The position numbers and the translations under genes were made by a program. A stretch of 64,000 nucleotides of DNA. Origin: Selenomonas sp. Its GTDB lineage: Bacteria > Bacillota > Negativicutes > Selenomonadales > Selenomonadaceae. The stretch covers positions 62,001-126,000 of the forward strand of contig JAKVOG010000001.1 in the NCBI GenBank assembly GCA_022482925.1, in the 5' to 3' direction. The notes below the pieces were generated by a model, which did not search any database, was not told the origin of the DNA, and saw only the letters and a program-made list of their open reading frames with translations. This document shows, in pieces, positions 6,898 through 62,831 of this stretch; positions within the stretch are counted from its first letter, which is position 1; the number at the start of each line of letters is the position of its first letter.

Positions 6898-7595
6898 TTC
6901 GTGTTTTCCTCCGGATTCGTTTCTTTCTTGTCCTCGCGGATTGTCTGCCAAAGATCGCGGGCACGTTTATACAACTTGATATCCTCATCACGGACCCGCT
7001 GATCGCCAATAATCCGTGAAATATACTGGGTAGACTTCTCATAATCCTGCATACGGAAATAGAGTGCCCCGATCAGATAAACTACGGTATTATCGGATAG
7101 CCCATTGATTGGATACCGTTCCGTCATCAGGGATTTGTCATACAGTTCAGCCGCACGTTGCAGCATTTCCGTCTCCTTGTCCTGCTCTCCTGCGTCACGA
7201 TAGACCCAGCCCAGTTCCAGATACAGACCAGCCCGCTTGGCCAGTGACTGATCCGTCATCTCCGCATAGAAAATCGCCAATTTAAACGAAGCAACCGCAT
7301 CAGGAATGCCCCTCTCCTCCACGAACTTCATGCCGAGTTTACGTGGTTCCAGGAACTCCTGGATCTTCTTCTTGTGAAGTGCCGGCATTGTTCCCAGAAA
7401 CGTCTTCTCATCAGCCGCAAAGCCGCAGTGCTCACAAAACCATATCTTATAGAAGTACGGATTGAAATCCTTATAATGCACACAAAAATCTTCATCCGTT
7501 TTCTCTACAAACAACTTGGATTTTGTCTTGACGATCCTCGTTGACTTGCCACAAATCGGGCAGGTCTTCTCAACCGTAAAGGTAAATTCCCCCAT
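6894..7595 (-). CDS. DUF2225-family protein with zinc ribbon and TPR-like repeats
   Basis: A 233-aa cytoplasmic protein. It opens with two cysteine pairs, CPIC near residue 12 and CEHC near residue 54, that should form one zinc-binding site, and the sequence MGEFTFTVEKTCPICGKSTR is typical of DUF2225. The C-terminal two thirds are helix pairs resembling tetratricopeptide repeats (LAKRAGLYLELGWVYRDAGE, TVVYLIGALYFRMQDYEKST). Such repeats usually bind protein partners; the specific function is unknown. It is first in a two-gene operon and is translated from an ATG after AGGAGGAAAATC. Confidence 0.85.
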   Translation of the reverse strand: MGEFTFTVEKTCPICGKSTRIVKTKSKLFVEKTDEDFCVHYKDFNPYFYKIWFCEHCGFAADEKTFLGTMPALHKKKIQEFLEPRKLGMKFVEERGIPDAVASFKLAIFYAEMTDQSLAKRAGLYLELGWVYRDAGEQDKETEMLQRAAELYDKSLMTERYPINGLSDNTVVYLIGALYFRMQDYEKSTQYISRIIGDQRVRDEDIKLYKRARDLWQTIREDKKETNPEENTK

Positions 7596-7697
7596 GATTT
7601 TCCTCCTGTCTATATCCCTTACTATTCTCTTCTTTTATAATTAGACAATAACTATAGAATACCACATTATCGGTGAAATTAACATGAAGAATTGCTA

Positions 7698-7734
7698 AAA
7701 TAACCCTCTGCAGACCATTCCACAGAGGGTTATT
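7698..7734 (-). terminator. terminator of the glycogen operon
   Basis: The stem AATAACCCTCTG / CAGAGGGTTATT with a 12-base loop lies 37 bases downstream of the last glg-operon gene on the minus strand. Confidence 0.82.
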
Positions 7735-7771
7735 TCCTGTTTTAACCAGGTATAGCATAAGCTAACACCGT

Positions 7772-10700
7772 TCAACGTTCATATTTTCTGCACAGCTCCC
7801 GAAGCTCCTGCGGATCAACCTCTAATGTATATTCCGGCTTCAGGCACCACTTCCAGTTCAGACCAACCGTCCCCGGCATATTCATCCGGCTACGATCATC
7901 CAGCCCCAGCAGATCCTGCATCGGTATCATAGCCAGCCTTGCATCCGAAGCATAGGCAAACGTAATCAATGACTTTGCCACTTCTTTGGGCCGGTCTTTA
8001 CGGACATGCAGCAGACCAGCTACAGCCGCCCGCGTTGGATCATCGGTATCCTGCTGATACCAGCCTACCGTCGTATTATTATCATGCGTTCCTGTATAGA
8101 CGATGCTGTTCTCAGGCGCCACAAATCCCAGACGCCCCTGCTCATTAAAGTGCAGCATGAAATGCAACACCTTCATGCCAGGGAATCCACATGCATCACG
8201 CAAAGCTTCCACTTCATCCGTAATGATTCCAAGATCTTCGGCTACGATTGGCAAATGCCCCAGTTCCCGCTGAATCTCATCAAAGAACGCTTTGCCCGGA
8301 CCTTTCACCCAGCGGCCGTTAATTGCGGTTTTCGCTTTGCCATCCACTTCCCAAAAGGATTCAAATCCACGGAAATGATCGATCCGGACAATATCTACCA
8401 GTTCGTACAACTTATGGAACCGCTGCTTCCACCAGGAATAGTTCTCGGTTTTCATTGCTTTCCAGTCATACTGAGGGTTCCCCCATAGCTGACCGGTAGC
8501 GCTGAAATAATCTGGCGGCACACCCGCTATGGTATGCGCCGTCCCATTAGGATTCAGATCAAAGAGCTGCTGATGCGCCCATACATCGGCACTATCCTGT
8601 GCCAGGAAAATCGGCATATCGCCCATAATCTTAATGTCACGAGCAGCCGCATATTCGTGCAGTTTCTTCCATTGAATGGCAAACAGATATTGTGCAAACT
8701 TCACAAGCCCGATTGATTCATCCAGGCGGCTTCTCAAAGCCTTCAATGACTTGGCATCTCTATACTTAACCGAATCCGGCCAATTGATCCACTCTGCGCC
8801 CTTATACTCGCGCTTAGCTGCCTCAAATAAGGCATAATCATCCAGCCAGTAGGCTTCTTGCTGACAGAATGCCTGATACTCTTTATCCTTATCCGCCGTC
8901 AGCCGGAATTTACTCCAGGCCTTCTTCAGGCATTTCCGCTTGAAGGTCTGCACCCGTTCAAAATCAACGAATGAGGAAGATTTACTGGCATAAGCCACCC
9001 GGGCCTCAGAAGCCGGCAGCCATTTCTGCTCAATCAGCATATCCATGTCGATGAGCAGGGGATTGCCAGCAAAGGCTGATGGCGACTGATATGGCGAATA
9101 ACCAAAACCAACCGGTCCCAATGGCAGGATCTGCCAGACATGCTGCCCGGCTGCCTGCAGGAAATCAATGAAACGATAGGCTTCACTCCCCAAATCCCCG
9201 ATGCCATATTTCGATGGCAATGAGGTTGGATGCAGCAGGACACCTGCCAGACGGGCATGTTTCCGTGGTTCATGTTCATGTTCCAGAACAAGCCCCTTCA
9301 GCGGCTGTATCTTCAGCGATATCCTGCCACGAGCCACTGGTACTTCCTGTGGTTCCGTTGATGACAGCGTATCCATGAAACATCCACCAGCGAAATCACC
9401 AACATCCAGCAAAACCGTACGCGACTCGCTGCGATTCCGATTAAACGCCACGACAAAGGCTTCGTCCTGGGCCTCACTGCCGAACAGATCATGTCCACCA
9501 CGAATAACCCGGGCATAGGCCAATACGTCTCCGTCACCGTAAAGCGGCAGAATCTCGCCGGTCTGCAAAGCCGGATGCTCATTCCTGAGCCGGATGATCT
9601 TCCGATACCATTCCTGCAGATAGGTATCGCCACCTTCCCATTGATAAGGCCGGCGATTATAGGGATCCTTGAATCCCTGCATACCAATCTCGTCTCCATA
9701 ATAAACACAAGGGACACCAGGATATGTCATCTGCCAAAGTGCAGCCATCATAAGCCGTGCCACGCCCAGATTATACTGCGTTTTATTCAGGCGGGAACGA
9801 GACTGCTGCACAGCCGGCATCCCATCAAAATAAGCGGCCTCTCCCAACAGAGTAATCGCCCGCTGGACATCATGGCTGCCAATCAGATTCATCATGGCAT
9901 AGAAATTTTCCTGAGGATAGTTTTCCCGCAGACTTTCAAACCGGCGAAGACAGCTGCGCCCATCGGCATGCCCTAACAAATAGTCAAGGAGTACTTTACG
10001 AAACGGATAATTCATTGCTGAATCCATCTCCTGCCCGCAAAGATATTCACGTGACATCCCATAGGCAATCTTATGCGACGCATCTTCCCAGACCTCGCCA
10101 ATCATGACCGCCTCTGAATCCGTCTTTTTTAGTTCCGCATAGAAGCTCTGTGAGAACGGCTCCGGCAGTTCGTCGATGACATCCAGACGCCAGCCGGCGA
10201 TTCCCTTTCCGAGCCAGTGATGCAGCACACTATCCTTATCATTGATGATAAAGTCCATATAAGAAGGTGTCGTCTCCGTCACGTTCGGCAACGTATTGAA
10301 ATTCCACCAACTTTCATACTCATAGGGGAAATTCCGGAAATTATACCACTCAAAGTATGGCGATTCAGGCGACTGAAACGCACCGACACTATCATACTGC
10401 CCCTGCCGGTTAAAATAGCGGCTGTTGCTTCCCGTGTGACTGAATACGCCGTCCAGAATGATACGGATCCCCTTCTCTTTGGCTTTCTCCACAAGCTCAC
10501 TGAAATCAGCATCCGTTCCTAAAATCGGGTCAATCTTCAGATAATCACCCGTATCATAGTGATGATTGCTTTCCGATTCAAAGACCGGATTCAGGTAAAT
10601 AACCGAAATACCAAGATTCTTCAGGTAGTCCAGTTTTTCCAGTATGCCCTGCAAATTCCCTCCAAAGAAATCATAAGCCACGATCTCTTTGGTATCAGGA

Positions 10701-11233
10701 TCCTTGTAATAGCATGGATCGTCATTCCAATCCGCATGGAAAACAGCACCATGTTTCTTAATGATCTTGTCCCCTTTCCGATAGAACCGGTCAGGGAAAA
10801 TCTGATACATCACAGCATGCTTGAACCAATCCGGTGTTTTTGCCCCGGCATTATAAACCGTGATCTGGAAGGATGGCGGTACATGATCATACAGGTCCCC
10901 CAAACCGCCTAACTGCTCTTCATTGTTTCCATAATAGCAGGTACCATCGCTGGCGGCTATTATGAAATAATACCATAGCAGACAGCCCTTCCCCGGCAGT
11001 TCCAGATTCGTGGAAAAGAACTGATCGTCTTCCTCTGACGATGCACTGGCCGTTAGCGGAAGCAATTCCTCACCGGTCTTATTGTGCCAGATACGAAGTA
11101 ATACCTGATTGATCTGCTGCTTTGTCCTCAGCCGGATGCCCAGCCTTATCTCTGTACCTGCTTCAGCTGCACCAACTGGTGCGCGATAGTAGATATTTTG
11201 AGAATCATGCTCGACCTCATTCTTATCCAGCAT
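7772..11233 (-). CDS. bifunctional GH13 alpha-glucan hydrolase - GH77 4-alpha-glucanotransferase fusion
   Basis: An 1153-aa fusion of two alpha-glucan enzymes. Residues about 1-120 look like a neopullulanase-type N-terminal domain. About 150-560 form a GH13 barrel with DGVFSHTG, GWRLDVIDELP (nucleophile Asp), MIGEVWEDAS (acid Glu) and IGSHDVQRA (third Asp). About 650-1150 form a GH77 (MalQ-like) domain with VRIDHFRGF, VAEDLGIIT and YTGTHDNNTT. Together they should cut and transfer alpha-1,4-glucan chains, acting on glycogen and maltodextrins. It is the last gene of the glg operon. The start is ATG 11233 after AAGAGGAGAG. Whether the GH13 half cleaves alpha-1,4 or alpha-1,6 bonds cannot be read from sequence. 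Confidence 0.92.
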   Translation of the reverse strand: MLDKNEVEHDSQNIYYRAPVGAAEAGTEIRLGIRLRTKQQINQVLLRIWHNKTGEELLPLTASASSEEDDQFFSTNLELPGKGCLLWYYFIIAASDGTCYYGNNEEQLGGLGDLYDHVPPSFQITVYNAGAKTPDWFKHAVMYQIFPDRFYRKGDKIIKKHGAVFHADWNDDPCYYKDPDTKEIVAYDFFGGNLQGILEKLDYLKNLGISVIYLNPVFESESNHHYDTGDYLKIDPILGTDADFSELVEKAKEKGIRIILDGVFSHTGSNSRYFNRQGQYDSVGAFQSPESPYFEWYNFRNFPYEYESWWNFNTLPNVTETTPSYMDFIINDKDSVLHHWLGKGIAGWRLDVIDELPEPFSQSFYAELKKTDSEAVMIGEVWEDASHKIAYGMSREYLCGQEMDSAMNYPFRKVLLDYLLGHADGRSCLRRFESLRENYPQENFYAMMNLIGSHDVQRAITLLGEAAYFDGMPAVQQSRSRLNKTQYNLGVARLMMAALWQMTYPGVPCVYYGDEIGMQGFKDPYNRRPYQWEGGDTYLQEWYRKIIRLRNEHPALQTGEILPLYGDGDVLAYARVIRGGHDLFGSEAQDEAFVVAFNRNRSESRTVLLDVGDFAGGCFMDTLSSTEPQEVPVARGRISLKIQPLKGLVLEHEHEPRKHARLAGVLLHPTSLPSKYGIGDLGSEAYRFIDFLQAAGQHVWQILPLGPVGFGYSPYQSPSAFAGNPLLIDMDMLIEQKWLPASEARVAYASKSSSFVDFERVQTFKRKCLKKAWSKFRLTADKDKEYQAFCQQEAYWLDDYALFEAAKREYKGAEWINWPDSVKYRDAKSLKALRSRLDESIGLVKFAQYLFAIQWKKLHEYAAARDIKIMGDMPIFLAQDSADVWAHQQLFDLNPNGTAHTIAGVPPDYFSATGQLWGNPQYDWKAMKTENYSWWKQRFHKLYELVDIVRIDHFRGFESFWEVDGKAKTAINGRWVKGPGKAFFDEIQRELGHLPIVAEDLGIITDEVEALRDACGFPGMKVLHFMLHFNEQGRLGFVAPENSIVYTGTHDNNTTVGWYQQDTDDPTRAAVAGLLHVRKDRPKEVAKSLITFAYASDARLAMIPMQDLLGLDDRSRMNMPGTVGLNWKWCLKPEYTLEVDPQELRELCRKYER

Positions 11234-11301
11234 AGAAATCTCTCCTCTTCTTGCACTTAAGGGCGGCAAATTATTGCCGCCCCTTTTCAGTTCGTGTTAT
11301 A

Positions 11302-12738
11302 TTATTCAGCGATGAGCTGCGTATAGAGCTGTTTATACTCATTGGCCGAATTTCTCCAGCTGAAATCTGTCTTCATGGCATTCTCCACGATATGCTGCCA
11401 TTCGGCATAATTCTCATAGGCACTCAAAGCCCGTTTCAGCGCATACATCATCTCATGAGCATTGTAATTGCTGAATACGAAACCATTACCCGTATTCGTG
11501 TATTTATCATATTGCTGAACCGTATCCTTCAGGCCACCGGTCTCACGGACCAGCGGTACTGCTCCATAGCGCATCGCAATGAGCTGACCAATGCCGCAAG
11601 GCTCATAATTCGATGGCATCAGGAAGATATCAGCTGCCGCATACATACGCTGTGCCAGCTGATTGGAGAACTTGATATTTGCCGACACTTTCGTCGGGAA
11701 ACGCCAGGCCAGTCCCTTGAACCATTCCTCATAGATCTTATCACCAGTGCCCAGCACCACAAACTGGATATCCTCGTGCTGCAGTACCTCATCCATCATG
11801 CGCACAATAAGGTCCAGTCCCTTTGGCGGAACCAGCCTGGATACCAGCGTAATCATCGGCGTACGACGATTGGCCGGCAGGCCGAGAAAATTCTGCAGTT
11901 CTGTCTTGTTATCGGCCTTTCGGTCCTGACTGGACACATCATAGGTCTCAAAAATATTCGGATCCGTCATCGGATTATAGACATTATAGTCAATGCCATT
12001 CACGATACCGAACAGGCGGTCATTGCGGCTGCGAAGCAGTCCGTCCAGATGCTCACCAAAGTATTCATACTGGATCTCTTTGGCATACGTCTTGCTGACA
12101 GTCGAGATATAATCCGCATAGATCAGCCCGCCCTTCATGAAGTTTACCGCATCGTAAAATTCCAGATCTCCATTGCGGAAATACTTCCAGTCCAGGCCAA
12201 GGACATCCTCTATTACTTCTTTCGGGAACACACCCTGATACTTCAGATTATGGATCGTGTACAAGGTTTTAATGGACTGGTAACGCGCATCGGCCATATA
12301 ATCCAATTTCAGGAATACATTGATCAGACCGGCATGCCAATCATTCGTATGAATCACATCCGGCCAGAAGTCGATAACCGGCAGCAATTCCAATACTGCC
12401 CGGCAGAAGAACGTAAAACGCTCGGCATCATCATCATAACCATACAGACCTTCGCGGTCAAAGTATTCCATATTATCCACGAAGTAATAGGTAACACCAT
12501 CTTTCTCATAGGCATCAAGACCAACATACTTCTTACGCCAGGCAACCTGAACCTCTCCATCATAGAGATGCTCCATCTCATCCACATACTTCTTATCAAT
12601 CATACCAAACTTCGGCATGATTACCCTTACATCCACATCGTCCTCATTAAGCGCCTGCGGCAGGGAACCAGCTACGTCAGCCAGCCCGCCCGTCTTGGCA
12701 AATGGTACTGCTTCAGATGCTACGTAAAGAACCTTCAT
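11302..12738 (-). CDS. glgA: glycogen synthase (ADP-glucose type, GT5)
   Basis: Transfers glucose from ADP-glucose to the non-reducing end of a growing alpha-1,4-glucan. The 478-aa length fits bacterial GlgA. The N-terminus MKVLYVASEAVPFAKTGGLA contains the K-T-G-G-L ADP-glucose motif, and the C-terminal half has the GT-B nucleotide-binding segments (SRLVPPKGLDL, MPSNYEPCGIGQL, RETGGL). The start is ATG 12738 after GAGGAGGATAATGGA. It lies between glgB and the GH13-GH77 gene in the same direction, with short gaps, as part of one operon. Confidence 0.96.
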   Translation of the reverse strand: MKVLYVASEAVPFAKTGGLADVAGSLPQALNEDDVDVRVIMPKFGMIDKKYVDEMEHLYDGEVQVAWRKKYVGLDAYEKDGVTYYFVDNMEYFDREGLYGYDDDAERFTFFCRAVLELLPVIDFWPDVIHTNDWHAGLINVFLKLDYMADARYQSIKTLYTIHNLKYQGVFPKEVIEDVLGLDWKYFRNGDLEFYDAVNFMKGGLIYADYISTVSKTYAKEIQYEYFGEHLDGLLRSRNDRLFGIVNGIDYNVYNPMTDPNIFETYDVSSQDRKADNKTELQNFLGLPANRRTPMITLVSRLVPPKGLDLIVRMMDEVLQHEDIQFVVLGTGDKIYEEWFKGLAWRFPTKVSANIKFSNQLAQRMYAAADIFLMPSNYEPCGIGQLIAMRYGAVPLVRETGGLKDTVQQYDKYTNTGNGFVFSNYNAHEMMYALKRALSAYENYAEWQHIVENAMKTDFSWRNSANEYKQLYTQLIAE

Positions 12739-12809
12739 TCCATTATCCTCCTCACAATCCACATGCTCTTGATTGTTATCATTCGTTCAGCGACAGGATC
12801 TTACTGCCC

Positions 12810-15278
12810 TCAGGCATTCGCCGCATCTTTCTTCTCTTCACTCTTGACCGTGGCAGTCGTCTTTTTAGTCGTCTTTTTAGTCGTCGTCCTGGTCGTTGTC
12901 TTTCTCTTAGCCGGTGCCTTTTCCGTTGTTTCCGCTTTCGTCGTGCGCTTTCTTACCGTCCGTTTCGGTTTAGCCTCAACATCAGCGTCAGCTTTCTTCA
13001 CCGTCTTCTTCGCTGCCGTTTTCTTAGCCGCACTCTTCGTCGCCGTAGTCTTGCTGGCAGTCGTTTTGCTGGCAGCAGTTTTCTTCGCCGGCGCTTTCCT
13101 GGTGGTCTTCCCGGCAACAGTCTTCTCTGCCGCCTCAGCCTCATCAGTGGCAGCTTTCTTCACTGCAGTTTTCCGGGTAGCAGTCTTCCCGGTCGTTGTT
13201 TTCTTCGCAGCAGTCTTTTTCGCTGCCGTCTTTTTAGCCGTAGTTTTCCGGGCTGTAGTCTTCTTCACCGTCTTTCCAGCTCCGGCTGCTTCTGCGGATT
13301 CTTTATTCTCCGTAACGTCTTCGTGGCCTTTAGCCTCTACAACCGTTGCAGCCTTAGGAAAAGACACCTGACTACCTGATTGTTCCGTCAAACGCAGATA
13401 AACAGTTGCCAACGGTGGAACCGTCAAAGTAATCGACTGGGCGCGATTATGCCACGGCACATCCTGACTGGCAATCTCACCGGCATTCTTTACGCCGCTG
13501 CCGCCAAACGCCTCATCATCCGAGTTGAACACTTCCACATAGTTCCCCTTGGATGGCACACCAATCCGATAATCATGATGAACCTCCGGCGTAAAGTTGC
13601 AAAGTGCAATAATAAAGTCATTGCTGTCTTCTGCCTTGCGGATAAACGACACAATGCTATTGTTGCTGTCATTCGGATCGATCCACTGGAAACCATCCCA
13701 ATCGAAATCCACCTGCCAGAACGATTTATGCTCCAGATAGAACTGGTTGAGCGCTTTGGAATAAGCCAGCATCTTCGCATGCATATCATACTGCTGCACC
13801 AGATGCCAATCCAGACTATCCTCATAATTCCACTCAATAAACTGACCAAACTCACCGCCCATAAAGAGCAATTTCTTGCCTGGATGAGCCATCCAGTAAC
13901 CAAAGAAGTTTCTGAGCCCAGCAAACTTCTGCCAGTAATCGCCCGGCATCTTGCTGATCAGCGAGCACTTGCCATGGACTACTTCGTCATGCGACAACGG
14001 CAGGACAAAATTCTCGGAAAAAGCATACATGAATGAGAATGTCACCTTATCGTGATTCCATTTACGATAAACCGGATCAAGGCTCACGTATTTGAGCATA
14101 TCATTCATCCAGCCCATGTTCCACTTGTAGTTAAAGCCCATACCGCCCATATAGACCGGCTTGGATATCAACGGCCATGACGTGGACTCCTCAGCAATCA
14201 TCAATGCCTGCGGATGGAATTTAAAAATTGCCTCATTCAATTTCTTCAGGAAATCCATGGCCTCCAGATTGCCGGTATCCCCATATTTATTTGGTGCCCA
14301 ATCACCGTCTTTACGGCCATAATTGAGATACAACATATTGGCTACTGCATCAATGCGCAATCCGTCGATATGAAATTCCTCGAACCAGAACATCGCATTG
14401 GAAATCAGGAAACTCTGAACCTCGGTACGTCCGTAATCGAAATTCGTTGTTCCCCATTCCCAGTTTTCAGCCCGCTGCTCGTTATCCGACTCATAAAGCG
14501 TCTCACCATCGAAATGGCGCAGTCCCTGTTCATCCTTGCAAAAATGCCCCGGTACCCAGTCCATGATGATGCCGATGCCTTCCTGATGTGCACGATCCAC
14601 CAGATAGCGGAACTCATCAGGTGTACCATAACGGCTGGTCACCGCATAGTAACCTGTAGCCTGATACCCCCAGGAACCATCAAAAGGATGCTCGCATAAT
14701 GGCATGAACTCAATATGCGTATAATTCATGTCTTTGACATAGTCGATCAGTTGATCCGCTAATTCCCGGTAGGAAAGATACTCGCCTTCCTCATTGCGGC
14801 GCCAGGAGCCGGCATGAACCTCATACGTCAGCATCGGGCGTTCGTATGAAGACTCCTTGCTCTTCTTCTCGCTCCAGGCACTATCCTTCCACTCATAATG
14901 ATTCAGATCATAAAAGCAGGAAGCCGTATTCGGCTTTTTCTCGGCAAAGAAACCATATGGATCCGCCTTCATGATATGCGGGCCGCCCCATTGCGGTTCA
15001 ATCGCATACTTGTAGATGTCGCCTTCCTTGATTCCCTCAATAAAGACCTGCCAGATTTCACCATCGCCAGTTTTCGTCATAACGGCCCTACGGGTATCCC
15101 ATTCATTAAAGTCGCCTACTACGCTGACCGACTTCGCATGCGGTGCCCATACAGCAAACCGGACGCCTTTTTTTCCATTCTCTTCAATTATATGTGCACC
15201 AAGCATCTCATAGGCATGATAATTGGTACCCTGATGAAATAAATATCGATCAAATTCACTTAAATCTGAAGTTTTCAA
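12810..15278 (-). CDS. glgB: 1,4-alpha-glucan branching enzyme with a histone-H1-like C-terminal tail
   Basis: Cuts alpha-1,4-glucan chains and rejoins them through alpha-1,6 bonds to branch glycogen. The 822-aa product has a CBM48-type N-terminal domain (GVRFAVWAPHAKSVSVVGDF), a GH13 barrel with GLRIDAVANML (nucleophile Asp), MIAEESTSW (acid Glu) and LPLSHDEVVHG (third Asp), and a C-terminal beta domain ending near residue 630. The last roughly 190 residues are unusual: an acidic linker, then about 150 residues of almost only Lys, Thr, Ala, Arg in KKTAAKKT-type repeats. Ordinary GlgB ends before this. The start is TTG 15278 after AAAAGGGGGATTATC; no in-frame ATG has a comparable site. Confidence 0.93.
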   Translation of the reverse strand: MKTSDLSEFDRYLFHQGTNYHAYEMLGAHIIEENGKKGVRFAVWAPHAKSVSVVGDFNEWDTRRAVMTKTGDGEIWQVFIEGIKEGDIYKYAIEPQWGGPHIMKADPYGFFAEKKPNTASCFYDLNHYEWKDSAWSEKKSKESSYERPMLTYEVHAGSWRRNEEGEYLSYRELADQLIDYVKDMNYTHIEFMPLCEHPFDGSWGYQATGYYAVTSRYGTPDEFRYLVDRAHQEGIGIIMDWVPGHFCKDEQGLRHFDGETLYESDNEQRAENWEWGTTNFDYGRTEVQSFLISNAMFWFEEFHIDGLRIDAVANMLYLNYGRKDGDWAPNKYGDTGNLEAMDFLKKLNEAIFKFHPQALMIAEESTSWPLISKPVYMGGMGFNYKWNMGWMNDMLKYVSLDPVYRKWNHDKVTFSFMYAFSENFVLPLSHDEVVHGKCSLISKMPGDYWQKFAGLRNFFGYWMAHPGKKLLFMGGEFGQFIEWNYEDSLDWHLVQQYDMHAKMLAYSKALNQFYLEHKSFWQVDFDWDGFQWIDPNDSNNSIVSFIRKAEDSNDFIIALCNFTPEVHHDYRIGVPSKGNYVEVFNSDDEAFGGSGVKNAGEIASQDVPWHNRAQSITLTVPPLATVYLRLTEQSGSQVSFPKAATVVEAKGHEDVTENKESAEAAGAGKTVKKTTARKTTAKKTAAKKTAAKKTTTGKTATRKTAVKKAATDEAEAAEKTVAGKTTRKAPAKKTAASKTTASKTTATKSAAKKTAAKKTVKKADADVEAKPKRTVRKRTTKAETTEKAPAKRKTTTRTTTKKTTKKTTATVKSEEKKDAANA
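12813..13274 (-). other. Lys/Thr/Ala-rich histone-H1-like tail of GlgB
   Basis: About 154 codons encode repeated KKTAAKKT, KTTARKTT and KTTKKTT units with almost no aromatic or aliphatic residues other than Ala and Val. Two acidic breaks (DEAEAAE and ADADVEA) divide it. Such tails in HU- or H1-like proteins bind nucleic acid or other polyanions. The frame stays open through about 460 low-complexity bases, which argues that the tail is translated and kept. Confidence 0.85.
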
Positions 15279-15370
15279 GATAATCCCCCTTTTATTACAT
15301 GTGTGCATGCAGCAGGCCCCCCGCCTGCTATACGCTCACAGATGCTTCTTTCACCATAATACAAAACGAA

Positions 15371-17836
<2,466 letters not shown>

Positions 17837-17946
17837 ATAAAACACTCCCTTGGCTTCTTTAATTGTACTTGAATTATAAAAGCCGCCGTAAATCAGCATC
17901 TGCCCGTTATAAGCAGCCCAACCTATCTACAACGGCTAACCTAACA

Positions 17947-19059
17947 TCAAATCACAACATTTTTCGTGACGATCAACGGGTAGCTTGGAGCTCCCTTGAG
18001 CCACTTCTCCTTCGTGATCACTACATTCTTATCACAGATCACATTCTCAACCAGTGCCCCATCCTGGATGTCACATTTCTGCATGATAATCGAATTTTTG
18101 ATCTTTACGCCTTTGCCAACATTCACGCCACGGAACAAGATGCTGTTCTCGACCTCACCGCGAATGATGCTGCCATTGGCAATCAGGGAATTCCTGACAT
18201 CAGCAGTTGCTTTGTACTGGACCGGCACTTCATCCTTAGCCTTCGTATAGATGGAATTCTCCCCCATAAAGAGTTCCTCCCACACATCCGGCTGCAGGAC
18301 ATCCATATTCGACTTATAATATGCTGCCGTAGAATCCACATGGGCAACATAACCATCATGCTCAGTCGCATAGATATTATAGTCACTGGCCCGACGGATG
18401 ATTCCATCCATCAGGAGATCCTGCCCACCATGCTCATAGGCAAAGCGAACCATGTCCACGAATATTCGCTTTTCCATGAGATAGACACCCATAGCGACCT
18501 TTGAGCCATCATAGACGGCCGGCTTCTCAGCAATATCCGTCACCAGCCCGTTCTCAGCTGTTTCCAGTACGACATTGCGCCCCATGTTCTCTTCTGCTGC
18601 GGTATAATAAACCATCGTGATATCCGCTTCCGTATTCTGATGGAAGCGGAACAACTCACGAAAATCAACATTATAGACAAAACTGCCACCAGCCAGCAGA
18701 ACATATTTCTGGACACTGTGCTCAAAATAATCCAGATCATGATAGAAATTCTTCAGATCTCCCTTGCGGGATACATCAGTCTCAACTGCAGCCGGCAGGT
18801 AAAACAATCCCTCATGCCGACGCGCCAAATCCCAGTCCTTACCAGATCGAAGGTGATCCAGCACCGACCGCGGGCTGTCCGGCAGCATGACCCCGACATT
18901 CTGAATGCCAGAATTCACCATACTTGACAAAGCAAAATCAATCAGGCGGTACCGGCCAGCAAATGGAATTGACTCCACCGCGCGGCGATCCGTCAGCTCA
19001 CGGATCAAACCATTATCTTCCTGAAGATTGATAATCCCCATTACCGTTTTCAATTTCAA
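17947..19059 (-). CDS. glgD: glucose-1-phosphate adenylyltransferase regulatory subunit
   Basis: GlgD is the non-catalytic or weakly catalytic partner of GlgC in Firmicutes and is thought to raise the activity of the complex. The 370-aa protein keeps the nucleotidyltransferase fold (SIPFAGRYRLIDFALSSMVN, then a left-handed beta-helix with SLIANGSIIRGEVENS) but lacks the GGxGxRL nucleotide loop; it begins MKLKTVMGIINLQEDN instead, which is typical of GlgD. It directly follows glgC in the operon, with a 35-base gap. Confidence 0.94.
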   Translation of the reverse strand: MKLKTVMGIINLQEDNGLIRELTDRRAVESIPFAGRYRLIDFALSSMVNSGIQNVGVMLPDSPRSVLDHLRSGKDWDLARRHEGLFYLPAAVETDVSRKGDLKNFYHDLDYFEHSVQKYVLLAGGSFVYNVDFRELFRFHQNTEADITMVYYTAAEENMGRNVVLETAENGLVTDIAEKPAVYDGSKVAMGVYLMEKRIFVDMVRFAYEHGGQDLLMDGIIRRASDYNIYATEHDGYVAHVDSTAAYYKSNMDVLQPDVWEELFMGENSIYTKAKDEVPVQYKATADVRNSLIANGSIIRGEVENSILFRGVNVGKGVKIKNSIIMQKCDIQDGALVENVICDKNVVITKEKWLKGAPSYPLIVTKNVVI

Positions 19060-19094: not shown

Positions 19095-20249
19095 TCAGCC
19101 TGCCTGCTTGCTGCCAGTCTCTACCAGCACCGACTCACCTTCTGCTACCACTGTAATGGCGCCCTTTTCACCAGCGACCTTCGCGCCCTCTGCAATCTCA
19201 CAGTTCTGCGCCACAATAGCATAGTCAACAACCGCATTATCACGAATCACCGTGGAAGGCATGATAACCGAATTCATGATCTTCGCACCCTTGCCAATCC
19301 GGACGCCTGGGAAGATCACAGAATTCTCCACCTCGCCCAAAACCATCGAGCCCTCGCTGACCATCGAATTACGGACTCTGGCCTGCGGGCCTACATAATG
19401 CGGCGGCATGGACTCATTCGAGGAATAGATTTTCCAATCACCGTTAAGGTCGAATGGCGGCTCATCCTGCAGCAGATCCATATTGGCCTGCCAAAGGCTC
19501 TCAATCGTCCCGACGTCTTTCCAATAACCATCAAATGCGTAAGAGTAAAGACGTGCTTTATCAGCCAGCATCTTCGGAATGATATTCTTACCGAAATCAT
19601 GGCTGCTCGTCTCATCCTTTGCGTCTTCTTCCAGATATTTTTTCAGGAAATTCTTATTGAAGATATAAATTCCCATCGAAGCCAGATTGCTTTTCGGCTT
19701 GGCTGGTTTCTCCTCAAACTCCGAAATACGGCCTGTCTTATCCGTATTCATGATACCGAAACGTGGTGCCTCGTCCCATGGTACTTCGATGACTCCGATC
19801 GTAGCTTCCGCCTTGCTCATCTTATGTGCCTTGAGCATCCACGAATAATCCATAGTGTAAATATGATCTCCAGACAGAATCAGTACATACTCCGGGTCCG
19901 CCGAATCAATGAAATTCAAATTCTGATAGATGGCATCGGCTGTACCACAATACCAGTCTGCTCCCTTTTCACGGGCATACGGCGGCAGGATAAATACCCC
20001 GCCCTGCTTTTTATCCAGATCCCAGGCACTACCGGAAGCCAGATAATTATGCAGTTCCAGTGGACGATACTGTGTCAGAACACCAACCTTGTCAATGCCT
20101 GAATTCGCACAGTTACTGAGTGGAAAATCGATAATACGATATTTCCCTCCGAATGGCACCGCTGGCTTTGCAATCTTTTTCGTCAGCGCCCCCAAACGGC
20201 TGCCCTGGCCCCCAGCCAGAATCATCGCTAAGCATTCTGTCTTTCTCAT
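19095..20249 (-). CDS. glgC: glucose-1-phosphate adenylyltransferase, catalytic subunit
   Basis: Makes ADP-glucose from glucose-1-phosphate and ATP, the committed step of bacterial glycogen synthesis. The 384-aa protein starts [20 protein letters not shown] with the nucleotide loop, followed by [19 protein letters not shown], the sugar-binding FEEKP segment, and a C-terminal beta-helix. The start ATG 20249 follows CAAGGGGGATTTTTT. It is the first gene of the six-gene glg operon, and its upstream region is bordered by an insertion sequence. Confidence 0.96.
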
Positions 20250-20402
20250 AAAAAATCCCCCTTGGATATTGTGACAAGACCGATCACCCCTTATTTGACC
20301 GATCTTTGCCTTGGATATAACAACAACAGGTGCTACCCCGTCATCACACACGAGCTGATCAATCCATTCAATTCATCATACTTCCTGTTCTAAATTGTTT
20401 TT

Positions 20403-24230: not shown

Positions 24231-26354
24231 TCAATGTTTGACCTTGCAGAAAGAGGACAGGTCTTCCTGTGAGATTGGCCGGCTGTACAGATACCCCTGG
24301 AACGCATCACAGCCAAGCGACTGCAGCTTATCCCGCTGCGGAATATTATCCACATATTCCGCAATGACCTTGAGTTTCATCGTACGACTAAGCAAAATAA
24401 GCGAGGCAATGATCTTCTGATTGTTCCCATCCTGCAGCACATTGCGCGTAATCGAACCATCCAGTTTGATGATATCGAAAAGATTGGTCTTAAGATAGGC
24501 AAGTGACGTGTGCCCCATGCCAAAGTCATCGATAAGCAGATGATGGCCGGCCGACTTGATGCGCTTCAATTTTTCCAGCGCATCCGTTGTCGTATCGATG
24601 GCATCCTGTTCCGTGATCTCGATCCAGAGCTTTGCCGGATCGATGGCAGATGCTTTTACAGCCTCCGCCAGGAGATCTTCCAACGCATCATACTTCAAGG
24701 AATCGCCTGTGATATTCACCGATATCTTAAACGGATCCGACAGCTGCAGATTCAGCCTGGCAATGGTATGACAAGCCTCGTTGAATATAAACCGTTCCAG
24801 ATCCGGCAATATCCCGGCCTTCTTGGCCAGCGCGATGATCAATGGCGGATAAATGAATCCAGCCGTAGGATGCTGCCAGCGCAGCAAGGCCTCAGCCCCC
24901 AGGAAACGTCCATGATTATCAATCTGCGGCTGATATACCATAAAAAGCTGCTGTTCTTCCAAAGCCTCTGCCAGATCATTCATCAACAGGTCAGCAATGC
25001 CATGCTGGATGTACGAAAGCTCCTCCAGTCGCAGCTGCTCATGTACCGCTTCCAGCTTCTGATAATGCCGTTCCAGGCCACGCACAACCTGCATAAACCG
25101 AAACTCCCGCTGCTCATCTGACAGACGAACAAAAGGCGCATACAGCAGAAAATCAGTCAAAACCAGCAGCCCTTGCAGAAAAACTCCCGATACAGCCCCC
25201 GTACTAATGTAGCCACCAATGAACACCGGCGTAGTCCAGTTGACCTCAGTAAGTGTCATCGGTACAAGTTGCAGGGACGTAGCTGCATAGGCAATGACCA
25301 GATTCACCAGCGGTGCTGCCAGGAATGGCACAAGAAACACCGGATTACATACGATTGGTACACCGAAACTGATAATCTCACTGATATTGAAAACCGATGG
25401 CAGCAAGCCAAGCTTCGCTATAGTACGTGAACCACGATTGCGGCTGAACACAAAGATCGCAATCACTAATCCCAGTACGTCACCAGAGCCACCGATCAGC
25501 AAATACGAACTCATGAAACCACCATTGACAATATTCGGAGGAACCAGTCCGCTTGCCTGTGCAAATAGATTATCCTGTGACAAAGCATAAAAATAATTGT
25601 CATTGATATCATATAGGATATTATTGCCGTTAATGCCCAGGAACCAAAAACATTGCACCATAAAGGCAAAAAGTGCAGTCGAGAGCAACGGAATATCTGT
25701 AAACAGATGAAAGAAAGAATTCATCATGTTTGCCAGTTCCAGTTGCAGACAGATACCACCAGTCAGATAAAGGATAAAACGCTGGGCCATGATGAACACT
25801 AGCATGACGCAGGACAACGGAATGATGGAATACACAATATCATGCAACTGTGCATCGATCTTATAATGCGCATGATTACGGCCGATATGAAAACAATCCA
25901 ACGACCCCAAATATAATACGCCTGCACCAAAAACGGCAATAAGACAGGACAAGACTCCTGCATGCGTCATATAGACCGGTTGATAACTTTCTGTATGAAA
26001 GCCAATGATGATGAGAAAACATACCCCCGCCAACAGCGGAAATAAAATGGTCTGAACAGGCTGAACATCTTTCTCCTGGGCATAGCTCCAGCTGATACTA
26101 ACTGTCATCAGCAGCGCAAAGTAGCTATCAATAATGGCCATCATATCCATTGCAGCCCTTAAAAAAAAGGCTGCCGTCGGCGTATTCAGGAAATCCTGAT
26201 ACACCGGAATCGGCAGGTTTGCCATCATCAAGACAAAACATTTGATTATGATAAGAGGAATCATCACAATAACGCCCTTCCGTATGGATTGGCAAACAAT
26301 GGTTCCCTCGAAATATTCTGTGCCTTTGAACAACATACGCTTTGCAGCATTCAT
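24231..26354 (-). CDS. PTS EIIC (cellobiose-type) - EAL domain fusion, putative c-di-GMP phosphodiesterase sensor
   Basis: A 707-aa membrane protein. Residues about 1-420 are a ten-helix module like the lactose/cellobiose EIIC family: FGVPIVCNPVFLVPFLAAPLVN, NWTTPVFIGGYISTG and VFNISEIISFG correspond to conserved EIIC segments. About 450-700 are an EAL domain with EALLRW, NITGD, EITEQD, DDFGMGHTSL, KLDGSI, VIAEYVDN and QGYLYSRPI, so the metal and catalytic positions look intact and c-di-GMP hydrolysis is plausible. In ChbC-like transporters a His occupies GIHG; here it is GING, while the later Glu is kept, which may mean sensing without transport. No EIIA or EIIB is nearby. The start is ATG 26354 after GTGGGGGATTACCG. 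Confidence 0.88.
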   Translation of the reverse strand: MNAAKRMLFKGTEYFEGTIVCQSIRKGVIVMIPLIIIKCFVLMMANLPIPVYQDFLNTPTAAFFLRAAMDMMAIIDSYFALLMTVSISWSYAQEKDVQPVQTILFPLLAGVCFLIIIGFHTESYQPVYMTHAGVLSCLIAVFGAGVLYLGSLDCFHIGRNHAHYKIDAQLHDIVYSIIPLSCVMLVFIMAQRFILYLTGGICLQLELANMMNSFFHLFTDIPLLSTALFAFMVQCFWFLGINGNNILYDINDNYFYALSQDNLFAQASGLVPPNIVNGGFMSSYLLIGGSGDVLGLVIAIFVFSRNRGSRTIAKLGLLPSVFNISEIISFGVPIVCNPVFLVPFLAAPLVNLVIAYAATSLQLVPMTLTEVNWTTPVFIGGYISTGAVSGVFLQGLLVLTDFLLYAPFVRLSDEQREFRFMQVVRGLERHYQKLEAVHEQLRLEELSYIQHGIADLLMNDLAEALEEQQLFMVYQPQIDNHGRFLGAEALLRWQHPTAGFIYPPLIIALAKKAGILPDLERFIFNEACHTIARLNLQLSDPFKISVNITGDSLKYDALEDLLAEAVKASAIDPAKLWIEITEQDAIDTTTDALEKLKRIKSAGHHLLIDDFGMGHTSLAYLKTNLFDIIKLDGSITRNVLQDGNNQKIIASLILLSRTMKLKVIAEYVDNIPQRDKLQSLGCDAFQGYLYSRPISQEDLSSFCKVKH

Positions 26355-26440
26355 CGGTAATCCCCCACGGTAATCATACATTTCGTTGAGTCCTTACCCT
26401 ATCTTAACATATCACGAATCCGGTCTCAATGCCCGGATAA

Positions 26441-33590: not shown

Positions 33591-34967
33591 TTAATGGGCA
33601 GCTCTGGCTACAGCAGCCTGACGCTTTGCCCTTGTACGATAGATCACCATTGGCAGGATAAGCATCGGCACACCGGCATAGAGCGCCACCCGGAGGTCCG
33701 GCTCAAACGCCATGAGGATCAGACACAGCACCTGCGACCAGATGCCGAAAAGCGTCACATACGGGAAAAGCGGCGTCTTATAACGCAACTGATGCTCCGT
33801 CCCGTCTGCGATCATCTGCTTACGATGACGATACTGGCTCCAGCAGATCGAGATCCAGGCAATCGCCCCCGTAAAGCCGGACACTGCCAGCAGATACGTG
33901 TAGATCACCGAGTCCGGATTGCAGGCATAGAGCAGGATCACTGCCCAGCAGGCACAGACCGAAACCATGATGGCATGCGATGGCATGCCGTTCTTATTGA
34001 GCTTGCTGATGGACTTCGGCGCCATGCCCATCTTAGCCAGCGCATGCAGCGCCCGGGCAGCACCATAAAGTCCGGAATTCGAGCAGGAAATCGCCGCGGT
34101 CAGGATGACGAACGCAAAGAACGCGCCAAATCCTGTAAACCCGTACTGATTGACTGCGGCAGCAAAGACACTTTCTTCAAGCGTTGCCTTGTCCCACGGC
34201 AGGATCGAGATCAGCAGCGAAATCGGGATGATATAAAGCGCAATGATGCGCCACGTCACATTGCGTACGGCAATCGGGATACTCTTGGCTGGTTCCTTGC
34301 ACTCCCCAGCCGCCAGACCAATGATCTCCGTTCCCTGGAAATTCACCAGGATGATGACCATGGTCAGGACAATCGCCCAGTAGCCATTCGGCGCAAAACC
34401 GCCACTCCCGAGGAGCACGCTGGCACCGATATAGCCCTGATCGCCGATGAGTCCGAGGCAGATCAGACCTGCCACGGCACTGAAGGCCACGAGCGCTACA
34501 ATCTTGATCAATGCTAACCAGGATTCGCTCTCGCCGAACTTGTCGACATGAAACAGATTAATACAGGTCACCAGCAGACTGAAGAGCACTGCCCACCATA
34601 GCTGGCTGACCTCCGGCAAAAAATTATTCATGATGATTCCCGCGGCAATCATTTCCGAAGGAACATACGCAACCCAGGTAAGCCAATAGGCCCAGCCTAC
34701 GCCACATGCCCAGGTCAAAGAAATATTTTCCTTTGCATAGGTAACAAAAGACCCCGAAACCGGCTTCTCAACCGCCAGCTCCGCCAGACAAAGCATGACG
34801 CACAGCACAATGACGCCTCCCAATAAGTAGGCGAGAATCGCCGCTGGTCCTGCTTTCTCCAATACATACCCGGTCCCAAGAAAATAGCCACTACCGATGA
34901 CTCCTCCAAGAGAAATCAGCTGTAAGTGCCTGTTCTTCAACCCTCTGTTCATTTTCGACTCGTTCAT
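33591..34967 (-). CDS. amino-acid permease, APC superfamily
   Basis: A 458-aa membrane protein with about 12 hydrophobic segments that should take up an amino acid by proton symport. It has the AAT-family N-terminus (RGLKNRHLQLISLGGVIGSG) in which GVIGSG forms the unwound substrate site, and later segments FQGTEIIGLAAGE, SCSNSGLYGAARALHALA and LAVSGFTGAIAW typical of proline, threonine or GABA carriers. The substrate is not certain. The ATG at 34967 has only AAGG close by; an ATG five codons later is the alternative. It is transcribed alone. Confidence 0.92.
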   Translation of the reverse strand: MNESKMNRGLKNRHLQLISLGGVIGSGYFLGTGYVLEKAGPAAILAYLLGGVIVLCVMLCLAELAVEKPVSGSFVTYAKENISLTWACGVGWAYWLTWVAYVPSEMIAAGIIMNNFLPEVSQLWWAVLFSLLVTCINLFHVDKFGESESWLALIKIVALVAFSAVAGLICLGLIGDQGYIGASVLLGSGGFAPNGYWAIVLTMVIILVNFQGTEIIGLAAGECKEPAKSIPIAVRNVTWRIIALYIIPISLLISILPWDKATLEESVFAAAVNQYGFTGFGAFFAFVILTAAISCSNSGLYGAARALHALAKMGMAPKSISKLNKNGMPSHAIMVSVCACWAVILLYACNPDSVIYTYLLAVSGFTGAIAWISICWSQYRHRKQMIADGTEHQLRYKTPLFPYVTLFGIWSQVLCLILMAFEPDLRVALYAGVPMLILPMVIYRTRAKRQAAVARAAH

Positions 34968-35171
34968 GACCTTACTAACACAACCTTCCCAGCACCGCTG
35001 CCTGTTTGTGATTTGTATAGCTTTTGCCATCCGCGGTGCTTCATTTACTAACCTAAAGAATACTACAAAACACCATAGATTACTATAGTTTACGAAAATA
35101 AAATTCCTATTCCGTCCATGTATACAATACGCTATAATTAGAACAGGATTCTGATAAAAAGAGGTACTGCT

Positions 35172-35813
35172 ATGAACACCTATCGCACCATCAAGGAAAC
35201 TAACGACTCCATCGAGACACTCTATGAGATACAGAAATCGAAATTCATCACCCATATCTGCCATGTCGAAACCGAAGAAGCTGCCCGCGCCTTTATCCAG
35301 TCGATGAAGAAACGCTACTTCGACGCCCGCCACAACTGCTCCGCCTGGGTGCTGGGCGAACTGGCCGACAAGCAGAAATCCAATGACGACGGCGAGCCAG
35401 GCGGCACTGCCGGCAATCCGATTCTCGAAGCGATCAGGAAGAACGGACTGACCAATATCGTCGTAGTCGTCACCCGCTACTTCGGCGGCATCAAGCTTGG
35501 CGCCGGCGGCCTCATCCGCGCCTATGGTCATGCAGCCGTGCTTGGCCTGAATGAAGCCTCCATCCTCGAAATGACACCATTTCAGGAAGTAGCCATCACC
35601 ATCAGTTACGAGTTGCTGGCTTCGGTGGAACACTGGATCCGGCAAAAGGAAATCCGCAGCACGGAGCCGGACTATGCAGATCAGGTCACCCTGCACCTCC
35701 TGCTGCCACCATCGGAACAGGAACAGCTTCTCAGGGAACTGACGGACCTCACCTCAGCCCGTTTCCACCAGGAAAACGGCAACCTGAACCGCATTGCACT
35801 GCCCATACGATAA
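35172..35813 (+). CDS. yigZ: YigZ/IMPACT-family protein
   Basis: A 213-aa cytoplasmic protein. The N-terminal UPF0029/IMPACT domain includes KSKFITHICHV, ARHNCSAWVLG, DDGEPGGTAGNPIL and VVVTRYFGGIKLGAGGLIRAYG, all hallmarks of YigZ; the C-terminal domain has a ferredoxin-like pattern. Relatives are implicated in translation or stress control, but the bacterial role is not settled. The ATG follows AGAGGTACTGCT. It is transcribed alone and ends in a bidirectional terminator. Confidence 0.93.
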   Translation: MNTYRTIKETNDSIETLYEIQKSKFITHICHVETEEAARAFIQSMKKRYFDARHNCSAWVLGELADKQKSNDDGEPGGTAGNPILEAIRKNGLTNIVVVVTRYFGGIKLGAGGLIRAYGHAAVLGLNEASILEMTPFQEVAITISYELLASVEHWIRQKEIRSTEPDYADQVTLHLLLPPSEQEQLLRELTDLTSARFHQENGNLNRIALPIR

Positions 35814-59366: not shown

Positions 59367-62300
59367 TTAGAAGCTCCACCTTGCTCCAAGGTTGAACTGG
59401 AGGTTGCTCTTGATTTCGCCGAAGTATTTGCTGCACTCACCATAGACCATGCAGTTCTGCCCGGCGCGTACGGTGCCGCCCAGGACCAGCTCGGCCCAGT
59501 CGCGCGCGATGTCCTGGCTGTAGCTGCGGCTCAGGCTGCTGTCACTGCCGGTCATAGTGATCCCGCTGCCGAAGTCATGATACCAGCTCGCCTTGAAGTA
59601 GAGGCTGCTGCCGCCGAAGTCCCGGCCAAGGGCTGCGCCCAGACGGGTGAGGGCCTTGTTCTGCGCCCCGAGGTCCACATGCAGGCCGGTGCTTGTCGTG
59701 TAGTCCGCCCCCTGGATGCGTCCGAGGAGGAGCTCGGCCTGCGGCTCGACGTAGCTGCCGCCGCCCAGCCCGTAGCGCCGGCCATACTCACCGCTCACGC
59801 TGTACGCCCAGCTGCTGTAGTCGCCGTGGCTCGGGTTCGCGGTCTGGGTGAGGTTCACGTCGTCCATGAATTTGCCCGCCTTGAGGATAACATCGTAGTA
59901 GCTGCCATTCTGGCGGATGCCGGTCTGGTAGAAGCTCAGCGTGCTTTCCTTCAGGTCACCGCTGCCCAGCTCATAATGTCCACTGCCAGTAGCGTAGGAG
60001 ACGGCCCCGCCGCGATAGGTGCGCTCATGACTGCCCGTCAGCACCCGGTCATAGCCGGCCTGCCCGAGGTTGTAGTCCACCTTGCTTTCCCCCTGCTCGG
60101 CCTCACCCTTGTTCCAGCGCGCCCAGGCGCCAGCCTCTGCCGGTTCCGCTGCGCGCAGCTCGCCCATGCGCCGCGAGAGGCTGTTCGCTTCCTTGAGCCA
60201 GAAGCTGTTCATGCCGGCACGGTCCTGCTCAGCCGTGCGCACCGCGCCCGAGGCAATCTCAGGCTGCATATTCGTGATCTTATAGGAGGTCAGATACCAC
60301 TGATTGTCCGTATCCTTCGTGAATTCAGGCACATAGTCGTAGAGGTTGTACGTGTCCTTCACGCCGGTCACCGTCGTTACGTTCGCCGCGCCAGCACCGC
60401 TCACGACGAGAGCCTTGCCGGTCAGCGTGCTGTCGTTGGTGAGCCCCTTCGTATTGAAGTACGGATCGTATTCCACATCGATGTTCAGGTCCGTCGTGCT
60501 GGAAGATGCGCCGAGGCTGAGCTGATCGGCATTGCCATTCGCGAGGTCCGCGTTGATGCAGAGGATGCCGCCGTTGCCGCTCAGGCTGTCGATCGTAAGC
60601 GTGCGCCAATCCGCCGCGCGCGTAGCATTGTCCCAGGTCAGGTCGATGACGCCGCTGTCTTTGAGGGTGAGCGCCGCGACATAGTCCTGCGTGGTGGTGT
60701 ATTTCGCAGAATCATACCAAAAGGTGCCATTGCGGTCATCGAACACCGGCTGCCAGACCGCGCCGTTTTCGATGATGATGTTGTTCGTACCATCGACGGC
60801 AACGATATTGCCCTGCAGCCAGGAGCCGCTGCCGTCGAGAATGATATCGTTCGTGCCGCTGTCATATGCCACAACATCGCCCGTGAGCTTTACGGTCTTG
60901 CCCAGGCTGCTCGTTCCGTCCGTTGTGTTGATATAGGTCGCGGCTGTCCCACTGGTCTCTATAGCAGCCGCAAGCTTAAGATTGGTGCCGGTATTGCTCA
61001 CCGCTGTTGTCAGCGTCACATCACCACCGACCTTAGTCGTACCACCGATATTATCGATTCCAATAGCCTGTGTGGAATTCTCATCACTGCTGCCCGCACC
61101 CTCAGCGGCCACATTCGCTATGAGATTGCCCGTGATGGTCAGGTCATGATTGACAGAGATTCCTTCGGCTTTTGCATTTTGCATCGCACTCGCTGTGGCC
61201 TTGACGCTCTTGAGGTTCACACTGCCATTGATCGTGGTCGTGCCACCATTACCATCAGTGATGCCATAGGCTGAAGCCGACACATCGCCATCGCCCGCTC
61301 CCCCCTTGCCGTCAACGGCACTGACCTCCATGGTCAGGTCTCCGTTGACGGTACCAACATTCACCAGGCCATAGGCTGAAGCTGACACACCGTTATTGGC
61401 CGCTGTTCCCAGGGCCGTGCCGCCGATCGCACAGACCGTGAGGTCCAGGTTCCCGTTGACCGTAGTGACCCTTTCCAGGCCAAAGGCATTAGCCGTGGCA
61501 GATTCTTTATTTACATCCCCCTCTGTGCCAGCTATGCCGCCTTTGGCTGTAACGGTAATGCTGTGCGTGTTCGTCCCGCCAGCCTTCCCCAGGGTTACAT
61601 CTCCTAAATGCACACCATAGGCATAGGCCGTCGCGTTGGTTACGGCATTGGCCGCAGCGGTGCCGCCGTCGGCGGTCACGTTCAGCGTGACGTTGCCATC
61701 AACAACCACTATACCGCCCACATCAACCCCATTGGCGACCACGTGGGCCGAATTGCCGGCAGCCACAGCCGCCGTCACGTTCGCCTTGAAATCGCCATGG
61801 ATGATCAGATCATTACCAACAAGTGCGCCATAGGCTGATGCTGTCGCCATGGTGTTCGTCACACTCGCGATAGCCTCGCTCGTAAGGTTCACGCTGCCGT
61901 TGATTGTGGTGATATTGTCCAGATTCTCAATGCCATAGGCTTCGACTGGAGCGGCCAATTGACTTTTCCCTGTTCCCAGGTACGTGCCGCCAACCGCACT
62001 GGCAGCGATAGTCAGGTCACCGTTGACCGTAGTGACCTCCCGCAGGCCAGTGGCACTAGTCGCGGCATCAACCGTCTGCGCATTACCCACACCAGCCGTA
62101 CCACCGGTCGCTGTGACCGTAAAGCTGCTCGTCGTACCGGCCTTCCCCAGCGTCAGGCTGCCAGTTGATTTCTCATTATAGGCTCCAAAGGCCCAGGCAG
62201 AGGCAACCGAAGTGCTGTCCGTGCTCGCAGCCGTACCGCCGACAGCCGTCGCCGTGACCGTCAGCGGGCTGTCCACCGTAAGTGCTGTACCAGAATTCCG

Positions 62301-62789: not shown

Positions 62790-62831
62790 TGTATCGTCCT
62801 TCTTCCTAAAATACTCTGTTCCCACATATAA

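Follow-up and report, generated by a model that had tools for sequence, protein, structure and literature searches.

A histone H1-like basic tail on the glycogen branching enzyme of Selenomonas and its relatives, and its possible use as a nucleoid tether

In the 64,000-nucleotide stretch of Selenomonas sp. DNA analysed here (the window), the gene of the glycogen branching enzyme GlgB runs on past the end of its known domains into a long lysine-rich repeat, which raises the questions of whether this tail is real, how it is maintained and what it may do on an enzyme of carbon storage. The gene lies in an operon-like series on one strand, in the order glgC, glgD, glgP, glgB, glgA and a GH13-GH77 fusion (Table 1).

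Table 1. Glycogen genes of the window and parts of the GlgB protein
Feature	Positions in the window	Strand	Remarks
glgC-like nucleotidyl transferase	19095-20351	minus	ADP-glucose pyrophosphorylase type
glgD-like nucleotidyl transferase	17947-19059	minus	named by position and Pfam domains
glgP, glycogen phosphorylase	15371-17899	minus	adjoins glgB
glgB, 1,4-alpha-glucan branching enzyme with C-terminal tail	12810-15308	minus	832 aa
GlgB core, residues 1-642	13383-15308	minus	CBM48, GH13, Alpha-amylase_C; net charge -32
GlgB linker, residues 643-678	13275-13382	minus	36 residues
GlgB H1-like basic repeat tail, residues 679-832	12813-13274	minus	net charge +38; KKTAA-type units
glgA, glycogen synthase	11302-12762	minus	without tail in the window
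GH13 + GH77 (4-alpha-glucanotransferase) fusion	7772-11269	minus	1165 aa; GH13 part alpha-amylase-type

Family models assign the window protein to GlgB and to the branching-enzyme family, with full-length matches to NF003811 (938 bits, cut-off 741), NF008967 (937 bits, cut-off 577) and TIGR01515 (884 bits, cut-off 464) of NCBIfam. Its CBM48 (Pfam, residues 36-119), GH13 and C-terminal beta domains (Alpha-amylase_C, 542-640) are those of standard bacterial GlgB, whose solved chains stop by residue 642: their best-matching stretches reach this position of the window protein at most, and the NCBIfam GlgB models above cut-off stop at residues 639-642. The known domains thus stop at about residue 642, and the whole tail comprises 190 residues (643-832, window 12813-13382). 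An earlier note on this DNA had put the tail at about 190 residues and at 12813-13385, right to one codon, and had described its last 154 residues as almost purely Lys, Thr, Ala and Arg; these contain 42 K, 41 T, 34 A and 8 R (81%), and the acidic patches that the note saw interrupting them are DEAEAAE and DADVEA, with SEEKKD at the end. A six-frame scan of the window in 5-residue steps gave 83% K/T/A/R for the densest 100-residue stretch of the tail versus 46% for the runner-up in another open frame. Lys/Arg pairs at a spacing of five residues number 30 in the tail compared with 15.5 in shuffles (z 5.4), and 0 of 2000 shuffles reached the observed count. The linker holds a motif like SFPxA...VEAKGHE that is common to many congeners. 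Third-position G+C content is similar in tail (GC3 0.54) and core (0.58), and the tail DNA is made up in part of short 12- and 15-bp repeat arrays. An open reading frame on the plus strand (11251-13371) spans glgA and the tail, whose sequence is poor in stop codons, and for that reason was read as their shadow. AlphaFold2, run with 24 sequences, modelled residues 646-832 entirely at pLDDT below 50 and without secondary structure, although the same shallow alignment also left stretches 397-429 and 437-450 of the catalytic core poorly modelled; as predicted, the tail is most likely a disordered, H1-like polycation.

Searches with the window GlgB gave matches in 93 of 100 genomes including its own, some of them only to distant GH13 paralogues, and the reading frames of the relatives were traced as far as the stop codon. 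The genus is represented by 22 genomes including that of the window, and all 20 complete GlgB that entered the tree carry a basic tail, of 68-203 aa; one further congener has a split glgB with a tail of 85 aa, and another (G007, 68% complete) gave a distant paralogue only. None of the 20 ends near residue 640, the outcome that would have marked the tail as a local artefact in the earlier note. Because congeners have the tail in frame to the stop codon, we rejected an assembly or frame artefact as its origin.

The wider distribution was followed on a tree of 124 of the 151 loci, with one locus (L001) representing the window. The 27 loci left out comprise a duplicate of the window locus (L002), four with partial or short cores (L043, L101, L150, L151) and 22 with long open frames in which the match starts only after residue 60; five of the 27 (L002, L071, L081, L150, L151) pass the tail threshold used for the tree, which was our choice (at least 40 aa, K+R at least 18%, net charge at least +5). 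Three organisms entered the tree twice (L024/L032, L039/L123, L044/L137), and the shortest tail counted has 41 residues. One family (f1), which we equate with the Selenomonadaceae because some of its GlgB cores have exactly the sequence of records named as Mitsuokella and Pectinatus, has the tail in 40 of 56 rows and in 18 of 29 genera. The remaining 11 of the 29 genera in the tree are without any tailed row, and the tail is therefore dispensable. In a wider Selenomonadaceae clade 22 of 68 rows fall below the threshold and the rest are tailed. Outside the class, shorter basic tails occur in 15 of the 22 rows of one clade, mostly Oscillospiraceae and Acutalibacteraceae, and none of the 12 rows from Paenibacillus and Bacillaceae in the tree is tailed. 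The whole tree holds 62 tailed rows among 124, in a sample picked by similarity to the window GlgB, so that the view of standard GlgB as tailless holds for one half of the rows and fails for the other, and the description of the tail as unusual needs qualification, since it recurs in Selenomonadaceae and in Oscillospiraceae-type GlgB. Mapped on this quick LG+G4 tree, built without bootstrap, the tail label changes 15 times as opposed to 41.8 times in shuffles, with at least nine changes forced by the starred branches; gain is not distinguishable from loss. The tail is a real, conserved and recurrent feature.

Repeats of this kind can arise by slippage, and the tail might be a near-neutral, functionless product of in-frame repeat expansion. 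Its variable length within the genus (68-203 aa) and a congener tail (L011) that consists of a 39-bp tandem repeat in 9.5 copies fit this, and in-frame repeats are at least partly the source of the length changes. The ratio of nonsynonymous to synonymous change is also several-fold to about 30-fold above that of the core. Against slippage alone, dN/dS of the tail is 0 to 0.31 in the 18 pairs, of 20, where it is defined; core values are 0.005 to 0.064, except in two pairs with L151, where they are inflated by its truncated core. In seven pairs, tail pN/pS is 0.15-0.28 versus 0.55-0.71 when the codon order of one tail is shuffled. These low values indicate that the tail is constrained, far less than the core, and in the pairs that allow synonymous change to be measured its substitution pattern is that of coding sequence. 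The relative nearest to the window has diverged too far for a dS estimate of the tail: this closest pair (L001-L003), like L016-L023, has a saturated tail dS and an undefined dN/dS. The retention of the tail in every complete GlgB of the genus and a long tail on GlgA in two genomes also speak against a functionless repeat, which we regard as quite unlikely.

Those two genomes, a Succiniclasticum MAG (L048) and a Selenomonadales MAG (L050), are sister rows in the tree. Their GlgB have only 35 and 50 extra residues, the former below the tree threshold, while their GlgA (7322-9400 and 7776-10070, respectively), both above NCBIfam cut-offs, end in long Lys-rich extensions of 188 and 178 residues. 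The GlgA tail of L048 is built of KTAAKKTTAKK units, has a KKRGRKP motif close to its end and, with an acidic first half, is net 0 over its full length; that of L050 is net +20. In both genomes glgA is followed by an open frame, of 1221 and 1222 aa, respectively. We compared the glycogen enzymes under one criterion for C-terminal Lys/Arg-rich extensions (at least 40 aa, K+R at least 12%), in a sample picked by GlgB similarity plus tail-less genomes, whose rates are hence not unbiased: 68 of 147 distinct GlgB (62 with net charge at least +5) and two of 97 GlgA (one at least +5) carry such an extension, and none of 64 GlgP, 77 GlgD, 73 GlgC or 19 GH13-GH77 proteins does. In this sample the tail therefore tracks the two polymer-building enzymes and not branching chemistry.

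The charges of these enzymes would fit a role in assembly, in which the tail (net +35 over all 190 residues) would bind the acidic cores of GlgB (-32), GlgA (-24) and GH13-GH77 (-31) and form a condensate on the growing particle. Across the 124 rows, tailed cores are more acidic (mean -28.6 vs -24.3, p 5e-4, kinship ignored), and in 66 rows of Selenomonadaceae the net charge of the tail correlates inversely with that of the core (Spearman -0.44, p 2e-4, kinship again ignored). The relation is however non-significant in the only five phylogenetically independent pairs (median p 0.5), tailed and tailless cores do not differ significantly within the family (p 0.12), and tailless cores there are acidic too (mean -27). 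We consider charge-driven assembly rather unlikely.

Attachment to polyphosphate granules would be another use of a polycation. AlgP of Pseudomonas aeruginosa, which has a similar tail, is reported to associate with such granules (PMC9239181), but a match to the polyphosphate kinase PPK1 is absent in the genome of the window (89% complete) and in 20 of 21 congeners, and 19 of these 20 nevertheless have a tailed GlgB (one as a split gene), the incomplete G007 being the exception. A polyphosphate role is thus very improbable, because PPK1 was not found in these genomes. PPK1 matches occur in one of the 22 genus genomes, including that of the window, versus 27 of 38 other genomes searched.

The earlier note had offered three roles for the tail, attachment to the nucleoid, to polyphosphate or to glycogen granules through charge; the second is weakened as above, and the first appears the most likely of the three. 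We propose, as a serious possibility that still falls short of being probable, that the tail binds DNA without sequence specificity and thereby holds glycogen particles on the nucleoid as they grow. GlgB, which has CBM48 and GH13 domains, would, to judge by its family, stay on the glycogen particle. The tail would bind DNA in vivo, as is reported of the PhaF and HupB tails, and glycogen would be strung along the chromosome and divided among the daughters instead of being pushed to a pole. In E. coli, glycogen is described as gathering where the nucleoid is absent and at the old cell pole, and as being inherited unequally (PMC12706056), and a DNA-binding GlgB tail would counter such segregation.

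H1-like granule tethers are a known kind, and their use on glycogen would be new. PhaF and AlgP end in Lys-rich repeats, disordered by observation or by prediction, that bind DNA or are presumed to do so, and the two proteins position PHA and polyphosphate granules, respectively (PMC3574117, PMC9239181, PMC13052382). The Pseudomonas phasin PhaF resembles the window GlgB, as far as descriptions can be likened, in its disordered C-terminal four- and five-residue repeats with regular lysines that bind DNA, and it takes part in placing the granules and passing them on to daughter cells (PMC3574117); it differs in that PhaF is a phasin of PHA granules and the carrier in the window a glycogen-building enzyme, and a phasin domain is absent from the five Pfam hits of GlgB at E 0.001. 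AlgP, a granule protein, is described with an H1-like repeat domain of 154 aa composed of KPAA and some KTAAA units (PMC9239181), yet it sits on polyphosphate granules, has no known enzymatic role and contains proline in its units, whereas the GlgB tail is KKTAA-like and occurs in a genome where PPK1 was not found. Lys-rich C-terminal repeat tails are likewise reported to strengthen DNA binding in the mycobacterial HU protein HupB (PMC5676037), as is such a repeat tail in actinobacterial topoisomerase I (PMC7398561), but there the carriers are DNA-binding proteins and here the carrier is a metabolic enzyme. In the window's genome, HU is represented by two open frames, 124 and 102 aa long.

The tail is H1-like in composition and period. 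Its similarity in repeat order to the histone H1-like HC2 family of Pfam (PF07382) reaches 27.8 bits for the whole protein, 32.0 for the tail and 35.3 for its basic part, below the cut-off of 40. None of seven composition shuffles of the basic part (of nine made, seven were scored) matched HC2 at E 0.01, so that residue order matters. Two congener tails matched more weakly (L007, 19.5 bits) or not at all (L011), and we rejected HC2 membership on these grounds and for the score below cut-off. In a survey of 60 genomes, HC2 matches appeared in three only, in GlgB of the window's genome and of G013 and in a spacer of the congener G005; this spacer, an AEKAA repeat of neutral charge within an unrelated frame of 397 aa, gave the sole match above cut-off (46.4 bits). 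The HC2 model therefore responds to repeats in general, and this lack of specificity makes the nucleoid tether slightly less likely. The G005 frame (L205), with its long AEKAA-repeat spacer, has as its neighbour a frame of 317 aa that contains an insert rich in Pro, Ala, Lys and Glu.

Another pointer towards DNA comes from RGR[PK], which we take to be the AT-hook core. Of 68 distinct basic tails (at least 30 aa, net charge at least +4), 11 contain this AT-hook-like motif, as against a mean of 0.3 and a maximum of 4 in shuffles, a count that kinship inflates; there is none in the window's own tail. Among five relatives' tails scanned with Pfam AT_hook (PF02178, cut-off 17.4), one matched, at 12.7 bits, and the cut-off was unreached.

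The repeat itself was also sought on other proteins. As a query, the 190-aa tail found only GlgB at E up to 1, in a search where low-complexity score correction could hide others. A DNA pattern encoding KKTxxKKT gave 26 matches in the 22 genus genomes, 23 of them inside glgB, and five with the pattern reversed; in the window's genome all three matches are in glgB. A looser pattern matched 12 sites in that genome, compared with 5 for its reversed form; four of these 12 sites belong to a DEAD-box helicase-like gene, whose protein has a basic but less regular end. A genome-wide fashion for KKTxxKKT tails in the window's genome was rejected, the strict pattern being confined to glgB. Outside the genus, 13 of 19 KKTxxKKT loci were inspected; eight are in frames of 14-84 aa and five in frames of 398-566 aa, namely topoisomerase I (G034, G072), RpoD (G035), FlhF (G022) and ClpX (G026), each above an NCBIfam cut-off. 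Topoisomerase I of G040 and G050 has KTA tails as well (side matches of the GlgB search), while that of the window's genome has a short basic end without KTA repeats. Where topoisomerase I of other genera is KTA-rich, the repeats lie at both ends (L168), at the N terminus (L169, L180) or at the C terminus (L174). In the window's genome topoisomerase I is spread over three overlapping frames (G000:C5:70841-72098, L200-L202), which may reflect either a mistake of the assembly or a broken gene.

Disordered tails rich in Lys and Arg bind not only DNA but also RNA. The GlgB tail may accordingly bring the enzyme to polysomes or RNA and not to DNA, and the basic end of the DEAD-box helicase-like protein in the same genome agrees with such a use. 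The RGR[PK] motifs in several lineages and the topoisomerase I tails of relatives, to judge by sequence, instead point to DNA, although they are compatible with RNA, and KKTxxKKT is also carried by FlhF and ClpX, which are not known as DNA enzymes. We regard binding to RNA or ribosomes as unlikely.

Taken beyond the window, DNA tethering by GlgB suggests, still more tentatively, a third kind of storage-granule tether, in which Selenomonadaceae and some Oscillospiraceae-type bacteria would hold glycogen on the nucleoid through H1-like tails of polymerising enzymes (GlgB, and GlgA in one lineage) that were repeatedly gained or lost. The matches listed by our search of open-licence PMC articles included no description of a basic GlgB or GlgA tail or of a glycogen-nucleoid tether. 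A review of organelle positioning treats PHB and polyphosphate tethers, and the word glycogen is absent from its main text in the form available (PMC13052382); in the available part of a review of alpha-glucan enzymes, the sole 'C-terminal extension' is that of sugar pyrophosphorylases (PMC11046441). If true, such a tether would be, as far as the literature search showed, the first system to position glycogen in bacteria. Should the tail tether glycogen to DNA, partitioning of a common bacterial carbon store would become testable with one truncation, and a generic cationic tail, repeatedly added to unrelated enzymes, would place their products in the cell.

Three other genes of the window, all on the minus strand, were noted for their architecture. 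A single 716-aa frame (24231-26381) combines a PTS EIIC domain with an EAL domain. An amino acid permease (33591-35696) is encoded in a 701-aa frame in which the matched domain begins at residue 257, and its long N-terminal part is without a Pfam match at E 1e-8. An autotransporter of 1152 aa (59367-62825) has its beta domain at residues 900-1130 and includes one Thr/Ala/Gly-rich stretch.
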